This document shows, one piece after another, positions 45,850 through 51,510 of a stretch of 64,000 nt of DNA; positions within the stretch are counted from its first letter, which is position 1; every line of letters begins with the position of its first letter. The stretch comes from Sulfuricurvum sp. (lineage in GTDB: Bacteria > Campylobacterota > Campylobacteria > Campylobacterales > Sulfurimonadaceae). Under the pieces are notes generated by a model. That model did no database searches. It saw only the letters and a program-made list of their open reading frames with translations, and was not told where the DNA came from. A program made the translations under genes and the position numbers. The stretch spans positions 1 to 64,000 of the forward strand of contig NZ_JAQTUH010000003.1 in the NCBI RefSeq assembly GCF_028710345.1, written 5' to 3'.

Positions 45850-47295
45850 TTATTTTATCTTTCCAAAAAAGTTTATCTCATGTTCTCGTAGAATGCGGAT
45901 TAGATTGGTTGTCCCTTTCACTCCGATAGGATCACCGGCAGTAAAAATATAGGTTTGTGTTTTATCGATAATCCCACGCTCTAAGCCACGTATGATAATA
46001 TCTTCCAACATCTCATCTAACTTCCCTTTTTTAGGAAAATATGCAGGAACTACTCCCCAAACCAATGTTAAAACTCTCGCGATATGATCATCATGTGTCG
46101 CAGCATAAATAGTCATTTTTGGACGATAGCGAGAAAGTTTCTTAGCAGAGCTTCCCGATGTTGTCATGGCAATAATCCCAGCTGCATGTAACGCATCACC
46201 TAGCCGTACAGCTGATTCATTGATAGTATCCATCGTATCATAGTATTGAAATTCAGAAAACTTATCAAACGGGTATATTTTCTCAATCGATTGAATCGTA
46301 TTGACCATTGTCTCTACAACTAACACAGGATTATGCCCCACAGCTGATTCTTCAGAGAGCATGACCGCATCGGTACCATCTAATACTGCATTGGCAACAT
46401 CACTGATTTCAGCACGTGTCGCACTCTCTTTTTCAGTCATGGAAAGGAGCATCTGCGTAGCAGTAATGACAGGTTTTGAGTATTCATTTGCTTTACGTAT
46501 CAACATTTTTTGAATAATCGGAACTTCATGATAAGGGACTTCAATTCCCAAATCTCCCCGTGCCACCATCAATCCATCCGAATGTTCTAAAATTGCATCA
46601 ATATTTTCTACTGCGTCAAATTTTTCAATCTTTGCAATCAATTGCACTTTGCCACCTAAAGAGGTGATAATCTCTCTCGCCTGTATCATATCATTTCCAT
46701 CTTGGACGAAAGAGATTGCCATATAATCAACCCCATTTGCAACACCCCACGCCATATCAGTTCTATCTTTGGCAGTCAAAATATCTATCCCTAAACGGGT
46801 ATTTGGAAAATTCACCCCTTTTCGTGATGTTAACGTCCCTTTATTATCGATGATGGCACTCACAAATTCCTCACCGGTACTTATAATCGTCGCTTTTATA
46901 ATTCCGTCATAAAGATAAATCGCATCATCAACAGTAAGTATTTTTAAAATAGAGCTCTCATTGATCGATGTTCGATAATGATTTTCTCCAACCTTTTCCC
47001 CCTCTATGGTCTCATAATAAAAATCGATTCTATCTCCGGATGAAAGATAAAAAGGCTCTTTTAAATTACCTATTCGCACTTTTGGTCCGGAAATATCTTG
47101 TAAAATTCCTACTATAAGCCCAGTCTCTTTGATGGCTTGACGGATATTAGTTAATACTTCACTATGATATTCATGGCTTCCGTGTGAAAAATTCAGACGA
47201 AATACATTGACACCTGCTCGTATCATTGCAGACAATATCTCCACACTTTGTGAAGCTGGACCGACGGTTGCTAAGATTTTGGTTCTTTTTTGCAT
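45850..47295 (-). CDS. pyk: Pyruvate kinase
   Basis: Transfers phosphate from PEP to ADP. Motifs: KILATVGPAS, FRLNFSHGSH, IAKIEKF (catalytic Lys), MVARGDLGIE and TATQMLLSM; C-terminal allosteric domain ends at 481. Complete. It is monocistronic, divergent from the cyclase-like gene across 138 bp that contain an ACCTCT/AGAGGT inverted repeat. In a reductive TCA autotroph its role is anaplerotic balance. Confidence 0.96.
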   Translation of the reverse strand: MQKRTKILATVGPASQSVEILSAMIRAGVNVFRLNFSHGSHEYHSEVLTNIRQAIKETGLIVGILQDISGPKVRIGNLKEPFYLSSGDRIDFYYETIEGEKVGENHYRTSINESSILKILTVDDAIYLYDGIIKATIISTGEEFVSAIIDNKGTLTSRKGVNFPNTRLGIDILTAKDRTDMAWGVANGVDYMAISFVQDGNDMIQAREIITSLGGKVQLIAKIEKFDAVENIDAILEHSDGLMVARGDLGIEVPYHEVPIIQKMLIRKANEYSKPVITATQMLLSMTEKESATRAEISDVANAVLDGTDAVMLSEESAVGHNPVLVVETMVNTIQSIEKIYPFDKFSEFQYYDTMDTINESAVRLGDALHAAGIIAMTTSGSSAKKLSRYRPKMTIYAATHDDHIARVLTLVWGVVPAYFPKKGKLDEMLEDIIIRGLERGIIDKTQTYIFTAGDPIGVKGTTNLIRILREHEINFFGKIK

Positions 47296-47433: not shown

Positions 47434-48099
47434 ATGATTAAAAGAGCGATTGAAGCCGATATAGTGTTAGTAGATATCATCGATTTTTCACGTCTAAGTA
47501 TGCCTCAGCAACTTGAGATTATTACGTATCTTTCACAAAGCTACAAAAAAATGATCAATAAAATGCTGAAAAATTCGGGAATTCCTCTGGAAAAAATGCT
47601 TCAAGGCATGATCCCTACGGGGGATGGTTTTTATTGTATCTTACACCCTAGTTTAAAAGGATTCGGTCCTATTTTAGGATTATCATTTATCCATTTTTCC
47701 GATTTAATCGCCAAAGAATACTCCTATTTTTTAGGGATACGTGTCGCAGTACACACGGGAAAAATATATCGCTTTGAAGATATTTTGGGACATGATAATT
47801 TTGTCGGTGATGGTTTAAACGAATGTGCCCGATATGTTGAAATAAAAAATTTCATTGTTAGCACTGTTTTTATCTCTGATACAGCGTATAAATCACTGCA
47901 ATCTTTTTTAGAAGATCACCAAGATTTTGCCGAATTACTACAACAACGTGAATTTAAACACAGCTCACTGCATACTTTTATCGACAAACATAAAATTGAA
48001 CGACAAGGATACCTCATTTGGATGAGGCAAGGCGGTATTATTACGCCGCCAAAATTAGATTGGTTATTTACTTCAAAAAGGAAAACTAATGCGCTTTAG
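47434..48099 (+). CDS. Class III nucleotidyl cyclase-like protein
   Basis: 221 residues, one soluble domain with the class III adenylyl/guanylyl cyclase homology pattern: first metal Asp14 in VLVDIIDFS, second Asp64 in IPTGDGF, GIRVAVHTG (101-109), and VGDGLNECAR with the Asn129/Arg133 pair that stabilises the transition state. The Lys that normally recognises adenine four residues before the second Asp is missing (Ile60), so substrate is open. No receptor or membrane part. The downstream HTH/coiled-coil gene overlaps by 11 bp, so they are made together. Could be an active unusual cyclase or a nucleotide-binding regulator. Confidence 0.7.
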   Translation: MIKRAIEADIVLVDIIDFSRLSMPQQLEIITYLSQSYKKMINKMLKNSGIPLEKMLQGMIPTGDGFYCILHPSLKGFGPILGLSFIHFSDLIAKEYSYFLGIRVAVHTGKIYRFEDILGHDNFVGDGLNECARYVEIKNFIVSTVFISDTAYKSLQSFLEDHQDFAELLQQREFKHSSLHTFIDKHKIERQGYLIWMRQGGIITPPKLDWLFTSKRKTNAL

Positions 48100-48754
48100 C
48101 ATTGATGAATACGCTAAAACTTTCAAAATGTCCAAAGAGATGATACATAATAAGTTAAAATCTAAAAAATTAAACTATATTATCGAAGGGGGAGTAACTT
48201 ATATCATTGTCCCTCGCAACTCACTCAATGATACTCAAAAAACAGCAGTAGAGACACCCATAAAACCCTCTCCACCTGCACCGAATAAAACAAGTATCGG
48301 AATGGTGATCTCGCTCTATCAAAAAGAGAACCTACATCTAAAACTAAAAATCAAAGAACTCGAAGCTAAAATCGATGCACTCGTCAACGACAAAGAACAA
48401 ATGCTTATTGCTGAACGTAACCGCATTGAAGAGATTTACACCGCTAAAGATGAACAACTTAAAAGTATTCTCGAAGTTCTCAGCACAAAACTGCTCCTTA
48501 CTCAAAATAACAATACCATTCATGATGTGGATGTCTCACACCAGCAGCAGCAACCACAACCGAGTATCTCATTAGGTTCCAGCGGTTTAATAGAGCTAAA
48601 ACGGTATCTTAAATTTATTGGGATCGGAAGCGAAGGTCGGAAACTTGTTCGAAACCGTTTTTCAGAACGTTATGGCAGTGATGTTCGCATTATCCAAAAA
48701 GAGGGTGAATTTTACGTTGACCTCTCAAAATATGACTACACAGACCTTTTATAG
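48089..48754 (+). CDS. HTH/coiled-coil protein paired with the cyclase-like gene
   Basis: 221 residues: an N-terminal winged or MerR-like helix-turn-helix (~1-45, YAKTFKMSKEMIHNKLKS), a Pro-rich linker, a long coiled coil (~75-135), a Gln-rich hinge (HQQQQPQP), and a C-terminal ~50-residue domain (GSEGRKLVRNRFSERYG) that looks nucleic-acid-binding. It resembles the DUF3972-type proteins of Campylobacterota by N-terminal layout only. Start ATG lies inside the end of the cyclase-like gene. Probably a DNA-binding partner whose activity is tied to the cyclase-like protein. Confidence 0.65.
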   Translation: MRFSIDEYAKTFKMSKEMIHNKLKSKKLNYIIEGGVTYIIVPRNSLNDTQKTAVETPIKPSPPAPNKTSIGMVISLYQKENLHLKLKIKELEAKIDALVNDKEQMLIAERNRIEEIYTAKDEQLKSILEVLSTKLLLTQNNNTIHDVDVSHQQQQPQPSISLGSSGLIELKRYLKFIGIGSEGRKLVRNRFSERYGSDVRIIQKEGEFYVDLSKYDYTDLL

Positions 48755-50061: not shown

Positions 50062-51510
50062 TTGTTATCTTCATTTTTATCACGTATTTTGCCATCTAAA
50101 TCCCCTAAAGCCTTACCAACATTAGAAGAACCAAAGCGAATAAAAAATATTAATCCCATAGAGATATTAAACCATTCTGTTTTGGATGCCAATGGTGTAT
50201 TTCTCAACAATTTCAATCTTTTTCATCATGAGCAAACCCATACCATTGATCTACTCCTCTTTTTCCCTCATTACGGTCTCTTCTTTGGTGAAAAAATAGG
50301 TTGGAAATCTGATGAACTCAAAGGGGCAAGCGTTGAGCGCTCTTCACGACAAAGTAAAAAAACACCCGCAACGAAATTAGAATCAACAGAATATGCTCTT
50401 CATCAAAAACTTGAAGATGTTTTATCGTTCGATTCGACACCCATTGAGCGCTTTTTTTTATTAGAATATTTAAGTGAAGTAGAATTTGATGCCCTTGATT
50501 CTTCATTTCATCGATTATTACCGAAAGAACGACTTATTTTTTGCGATGATGATATTCAAAGTATTCAAGAAAAACTCTTAAGTCTTGGAACCTATCACGA
50601 CAATCCCTATTCAAAACTCAAAGTATTGGGTTCACTCAATGCACATACCTTGTTACTTCCCACACACAGTGAGCCCTTTGGAGTATTCTTGTCCGAAGAA
50701 CAGCACGCACTCCTAAATGCTCCGCTCAATCAAGCAAAAATTGTTTTGAAAGGTGCAGAGGGTAGTGGAAAAAGTACCATTCTTGTTCGTAAAGTTCTAA
50801 AATCACTATTAGAAGATCCCAAATCAAAAGTGATGATTGTTACCCCTACATTGGTCAGCGGAGAGCTTTTTCGAAGAGAACTCATTGCTTTATGTGACTT
50901 TGCAATGGTACACATTGATTTTGGGAGAGTAACCTTTATTAATCCTCCAACCCCAACCGAAGCGATTGATTTCAAAGAACTGCTTCATGATATTAGCCTT
51001 ATAATTTTGGATGACTATAATTTTTATTTTTTCATCAATACTATCAATTTGGATAAACAATCAATCATTATAAGCAGTAAATCCGAAATCAAAGATATCT
51101 ATACCTACCCACTTTCTGATGTCTATCGTATTCCAAGTGTGAACTTTGTTTATTATGTACAACAAGGTGGGCCATTATTTGCTCTTCTGTCAAAACTTCG
51201 TGAACAATTTGAACAAAAAGCAAACACCCCTATTTTAATCGTTTTATCTGATGAAGCACAACTTCAACAATATAAAAATGCTATTGATGAATATCTCAAA
51301 ATCGAATGTCGTATATTAAATTCATCTTTTAGTCTTCAATACAAAAATTTAGATCCTATTACCCTCTCTACCACAGAATATATCGTAGGATTAAGTGTTC
51401 CACATACCTATATCATCAATATTGCGTCCGATACCGATGCGTATAGCCTAGCATTAAGCAGAGCATCAGAAACAGCTACTATAATCACCGAAGAAATTCA
51501 ATCATTTTAA
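50062..51510 (+). CDS. NERD-like domain protein with reduced SF1 helicase ATPase
   Basis: 482 residues. Residues ~55-160 resemble the NERD nuclease-related domain (IDLLLFFPHYGLFFGEKIGW), though the usual ExK is changed. Then LSEEQ (Q-motif-like), Walker A GAEGSGKST (~231-239), Walker B LIILDD, and a C-terminal LALSRASETATII resembling SF1 motif VI. It lacks the length for full 1B/2B domains of UvrD/Rep helicases. Starts with TTG, AGAGGA upstream. Possible DNA repair or defence ATPase, or a dead derivative; frame is intact. Cyclophilin follows by 14 bp. Confidence 0.6.
   Translation: MLSSFLSRILPSKSPKALPTLEEPKRIKNINPIEILNHSVLDANGVFLNNFNLFHHEQTHTIDLLLFFPHYGLFFGEKIGWKSDELKGASVERSSRQSKKTPATKLESTEYALHQKLEDVLSFDSTPIERFFLLEYLSEVEFDALDSSFHRLLPKERLIFCDDDIQSIQEKLLSLGTYHDNPYSKLKVLGSLNAHTLLLPTHSEPFGVFLSEEQHALLNAPLNQAKIVLKGAEGSGKSTILVRKVLKSLLEDPKSKVMIVTPTLVSGELFRRELIALCDFAMVHIDFGRVTFINPPTPTEAIDFKELLHDISLIILDDYNFYFFINTINLDKQSIIISSKSEIKDIYTYPLSDVYRIPSVNFVYYVQQGGPLFALLSKLREQFEQKANTPILIVLSDEAQLQQYKNAIDEYLKIECRILNSSFSLQYKNLDPITLSTTEYIVGLSVPHTYIINIASDTDAYSLALSRASETATIITEEIQSF

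Follow-up and report, generated by a model that had tools for sequence, protein, structure and literature searches.

The systems closest to the locus described here are class III nucleotidyl cyclases and nucleotide-linked proteins that work with a DNA-binding partner. Class III cyclases (PF00211) carry two metal-binding aspartates spaced 44 residues apart, an asparagine/arginine pair for the transition state, a phosphate-binding lysine and two base-reading residues, which are Lys/Asp in the ATP type and Glu/Cys in the GTP type. In mycobacteria, the cyclase–HTH fusion Rv0386 joins a DNA-binding module to a class III cyclase whose substrate pair is unusual, in one fused polypeptide that also bears an AAA ATPase domain. 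The PycC enzymes of Pycsar are short stand-alone class III cyclases with a non-canonical pocket. A different arrangement is found in the YajQ proteins, which act through a transcription factor: the nucleotide-responsive XC_3703 modulates a DNA-binding partner, the LysR regulator XC_2801 (PMC4199771).

The window analysed here is a stretch of 64,000 nucleotides from the sulfur-oxidizing bacterium Sulfuricurvum sp. (contig NZ_JAQTUH010000003.1). It contains two overlapping genes, A and B, whose features are collected in Table 1. The original prediction, made from the letters alone, described A as an orphan class III cyclase-like gene and B as its HTH/coiled-coil partner, with a nucleotide made or bound by A controlling the DNA binding of B. 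Both reading frames and their overlap were found as described. In comparison with Rv0386, the A/B system consists of two genes, has a different type of HTH and lacks an AAA ATPase domain.

Table 1. Features of the A/B locus (window positions; residue numbers refer to each protein).
Feature	Position	Strand	Basis
Gene A, single-domain class III nucleotidyl cyclase-like protein, 221 aa, ATG start	47434..48099	+	ORF; AlphaFold; Foldseek; VIA-align
D14 codon, first metal Asp	47473..47475	+	Invariant, 58 rows; aligned by hhalign to FSDI, the metal-Asp motif in own-genome cyclases
I60 codon, position of base-reading Lys (4 before D64)	47611..47613	+	I in 45, V in 13 of 58 rows; motif spacing
D64 codon, second metal Asp (TGDGF)	47623..47625	+	Invariant, 58 rows
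N122 codon, position of base-reading Asp (7 before N129)	47797..47799	+	Invariant, 58 rows; motif spacing
N129 to R133 codons, transition-state Asn/Arg motif (NECAR)	47818..47832	+	N129, C131 and R133 invariant
K185 codon, likely phosphate-binding Lys (DKH turn, last two strands)	47986..47988	+	Invariant, 58 rows
A/B overlap, 11 nt	48089..48099	+	Sequence; shared by most close orthologues, the rest having gaps of up to 161 nt
Gene B, wHTH / coiled-coil / small alpha-beta protein, 221 aa	48089..48754	+	ORF; AlphaFold (pLDDT 86); orthologues across family
B winged helix-turn-helix, predicted, residues 1-42	48089..48214	+	AlphaFold; VIA-align
B long coiled-coil helix, predicted, residues 70-141 (72 residues)	48296..48511	+	AlphaFold
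B C-terminal strand-helix-helix-strand-strand domain, predicted, residues 165-211	48581..48721	+	AlphaFold

By its predicted structure, A is a class III cyclase, as first proposed. The AlphaFold model (pLDDT 88, pTM 0.85) matched 3et6 in Foldseek (E 2.9e-8), while VIA-align superposed it on soluble guanylate cyclase beta (Z 18.1, 176 residues, 2.4 A) and on the Anabaena uridylate cyclase AnPycC 8jsz (Z 15.3). All the top-listed structural matches were class III cyclases, with which A shares the whole fold along its length, although it carries no fused sensor domain. Unlike the class III cyclases recognized by PF00211, A is missed by Pfam, where the search returned zero matches; NCBIfam gave a single weak, irrelevant match, and neither A nor its profile found anything useful among the sequences of solved structures. 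The PF00211 profile matched only 4 of 26 members of the A family (best E 0.027). An hhalign comparison of A with the three cyclases of its own genome reached E 9e-4 at a probability of merely 22%, and placed D14, D64, N129 and R133 in register with their catalytic residues. Furthermore, a longer homologue from another family (L053 in genome G161) matched the A profile at 2.2e-14 and also scored above the PF00211 cut-off, thus forming a bridge between A and the PF00211 cyclases. The term orphan is accurate as regards the databases, but not as regards the relatives, since orthologues of A were found in 74 of 200 of them.

The locus of G161 (L053:5390-7140) is of separate interest. There, a ThsB-type TIR gene is directly followed by a gene whose 384-aa product is class III cyclase-like, and a Cas6 gene lies close by; the TIR and cyclase-like genes possibly represent a new TIR/cyclase defence pair.

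The catalytic residues of A were analysed in an alignment of 58 orthologues, with identity down to 52% and 39 invariant columns. The four residues named in the original prediction (D14, D64, N129 and R133) are unchanged in all the rows and across 47 family members. K185 is the likely equivalent of the mammalian phosphate lysine, judging from its location between the final two strands of the model (180-183 and 189-197). The probability that these five residues would all be invariant by chance is 1.4e-4. The metal aspartates are 50 residues apart in A, compared with 44 in the class III cyclases. The base pocket is altered: the adenine-recognizing lysine is missing, as had been noticed, with I or V at position 60 in every row, and N122 stands where the base-reading aspartate would be. 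A thus has neither the ATP-type nor the GTP-type pair. L12 and T62, at sites lining the pocket of the pyrimidine cyclases PycC (PMC11224242), are also invariant. Judged by its pocket, A falls outside the canonical adenylyl and guanylyl cyclases, and its residues suggest an active enzyme whose base preference is different or looser. The replacement of both base-reading residues would also suit a catalytically dead protein that merely binds a nucleotide or B. This seems unlikely, since the metal, transition-state and phosphate-site residues are all invariant over deep divergence, and cyclases with other pocket residues, such as the pyrimidine cyclases, are active (PMC11224242). Together with its kin, A probably forms a subfamily of active, non-canonical cyclases that has a DNA-binding partner.

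A resembles PycC in being a short stand-alone class III cyclase with a non-canonical pocket, and AnPycC is among its structural matches. However, its pocket residues differ from those of PycC (PMC11224242), no cNMP-binding transmembrane or TIR effector lies beside it, and its locus is chromosomal and vertically inherited. The phage, plasmid and viral contigs searched yielded no A. A Pycsar defence pair was therefore rejected, given a neighbour without a cNMP-binding domain and the lack of mobile or viral copies.

The architecture predicted for B from its sequence was recovered in the AlphaFold model, with a winged HTH, a long coiled-coil helix and a small alpha/beta domain. A Pro-rich linker follows the winged helix and a disordered stretch precedes the C-terminal domain. 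In VIA-align, the putative DNA-binding domain (residues 1-42) showed modest similarity to Xis, BldC and MerR-type domains (Z 4 to 6 across 42-49 residues), and the best Foldseek E for it was 0.09. Pfam detected neither a cNMP-binding nor any other known nucleotide-binding domain in B, and a CRP-type receptor was rejected on this ground. An origin of the two end domains by internal duplication was likewise rejected, as they share no profile similarity. DUF3972 (PF13118), a Campylobacterota protein family, aligns weakly with residues 7-79 of B; the score of 14.6 bits lies below the cut-off of 26.2, and B was not assigned to it. A distinct protein of the same genome does pass, and PF13118 marks a further protein across the phylum, in 256 of 298 genomes. 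A literature search covering DUF3972 and cyclic nucleotides in these bacteria found nothing on function.

The conservation of the pair was studied in the closest relatives, Sulfuricurvum and Sulfurimonas, and in the family formed by these and their allies (121 genomes, including the source genome). A and B occur together in 68 genomes, A without B in 1, B alone in 40 and neither in 10, while an intact B lies beside a remnant of A in 2. The pair is therefore kept in 68 of the 69 A-bearing genomes, the exception being a broken A at a contig end. In 47 of 47 family loci, A immediately precedes B on the same strand, with gaps of -11 to 161 nt, and a search of genome contigs found B as the neighbour of A in 78 of 80 loci; the genome-set and contig-collection counts share some members and are not additive. 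The A and B distances are correlated overall (r 0.93), within the genus (0.81) and in other genera (0.74), with 0 of 9999 permutations in each of the three sets, although such a correlation is expected for co-inherited genes, coupled or not. Moreover, synteny extends over the entire block (methyltransferase, pyk or fba, A, B, HU), which leaves the adjacency of A and B supportive but weak by itself. A scan for promoters and terminators at the locus gave results near chance.

The genes flanking the pair have features of their own. The gene before A (window positions 45850-47295) is pyk in Sulfuricurvum, but most Sulfurimonas-type genomes have fba there, an exchange of one glycolysis gene for another at the same site. 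After HU, a 482-aa P-loop helicase-like ORF (50062-51510) has weak Pfam matches only and is conserved in the block.

The tree of B requires at least 10 changes in the presence of A. Three intermediates (genomes G087, G039 and G037; loci L223, L224 and L225) indicate the direction of these changes: in G087 the middle of A, including D64 to R133, is deleted and B is intact; in G039 approximately the last 31 codons of A are left before an intact B; and in G037 A has acquired a frameshift and a stop. The direction is thus loss of A. The retention of B where A is lost or decayed indicates that B has a role of its own, with A as an add-on. The 40 family genomes with B alone count against control of B by A, and so does the absence of a known nucleotide-binding domain in B. 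Control of B by a nucleotide from A, as originally suggested, is a possibility rather than an established result.

The rest of the genome may offer other candidates for reading a nucleotide signal. The search for cNMP-binding domains encoded elsewhere, which had been recommended, found seven of them, together with three PF00211 cyclases of the ordinary type. PF00211 cyclases also occur in 48 of 120 relatives, and the remark that cyclic nucleotide signalling is hardly known in this phylum does not fit the present genome and needs correction. The main rival to A acting on B is that A is an active cyclase whose diffusible product is read elsewhere, by CRP/FNR-type or other cNMP-binding proteins, with B as a mere operon neighbour. 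Although rather doubtful in our assessment, this alternative fits the cNMP-binding domains of the genome, the synteny of the whole block and the frequent occurrence of B without A. At least one cNMP-binding domain is present in 120 of 120 relatives, which fits it as well but makes these domains uninformative as a marker of a receptor, a use that was rejected; many of the proteins are probably FNR-like and need not bind a cNMP. A diffusible messenger is also difficult to reconcile with the persistence of a short gap or an overlap between the two genes while the preceding gene switches between pyk and fba, and with the finding of no intact A without B in the family. As a side observation, locus L222 (G034) encodes a membrane protein of approximately 730 aa with a C-terminal cNMP-binding domain, which is apparently, judged by eye, a SulP/STAS transporter; proteins of similar length occur in many Sulfuricurvum genomes.

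A link between A and flagella emerged from the data, without a prior prediction. In the family, A never occurs without flagellin: 69 genomes have both, none has A alone, 32 have flagellin alone and 20 have neither. The Fisher p of 3.6e-9 is uncorrected for kinship, in a data set where only about five of the flagellar losses are independent. Beyond the family, the contexts of the two nearest relatives of A were examined. In G124 (L051:401-6393), the relative comes first, immediately ahead of flagellin-like, flaG, fliD and fliS genes, while in G140 (L052:4509-6636) it has an extra C-terminal coiled coil and lies directly before neuC. Both contexts would agree with A being a flagellum- or motility-linked cyclase or nucleotide-binding regulator whose transcriptional output is B, but they are two single cases, tree-based independent pairs did not decide, and B persists without flagellin. 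This explanation is improbable as it stands: the association is suggestive only, and was dropped as proof of function.

A parallel for A and B is provided by a B paralogue in the same genome (33% identity, a figure taken from the orthologue compared). It overlaps an HD-domain gene located just downstream of yajQ (L229:4431-6542, C4), and the paralogue directly follows yajQ in four genomes sampled from other genera. Locus L083 has another HD-domain gene after the first. DUF3972-like proteins may have a connection with c-di-GMP proteins. The YajQ system likewise consists of a nucleotide-linked protein with a DNA-binding partner; nevertheless, YajQ is a c-di-GMP-binding protein rather than a cyclase, and XC_2801 is a LysR-type regulator.

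The reading that we favour, with a confidence somewhat short of even, is that A is an active, non-canonical cyclase which regulates a dimeric B, by contact or through its product, and that B has a basic role alone. B would be a dimeric wHTH coiled-coil DNA-binding protein, made together with A. A would serve as an optional regulator that changes the DNA binding of B, much as YajQ does with its partner regulator, and B would keep its basic role where A has been lost. This regulation is suggested by the occurrence of A without an adjacent B only at a contig end, by the distance correlation, by the location of the B paralogue beside yajQ and an HD gene, and by the action of YajQ through a transcription factor. 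We infer the activity and product of A, the dimerization of B, the A–B contact and every step from product to DNA.

A broader proposal is a long shot: the product of A would be neither cAMP nor cGMP but another cyclic nucleotide, serving as a chromosomally encoded messenger outside defence, and the wHTH coiled-coil proteins of DUF3972-like type would be a new class of nucleotide-signal outputs, linked to flagellar motility in Campylobacterota. The output proteins, on an equally speculative footing, would be B with A, and the B paralogue with YajQ and HD proteins.

A is the most conserved class III cyclase of Sulfuricurvum, and is missed by domain search: it is present in 37 of 41 genomes of the genus (one of them with a broken copy), whereas PF00211 cyclases are detected in 9 of 41. 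Its altered base pocket makes the identity of its product a direct question, and the A/B pair offers a concrete test of nucleotide control over an uncharacterized, lineage-restricted family of putative DNA-binding coiled-coil proteins.
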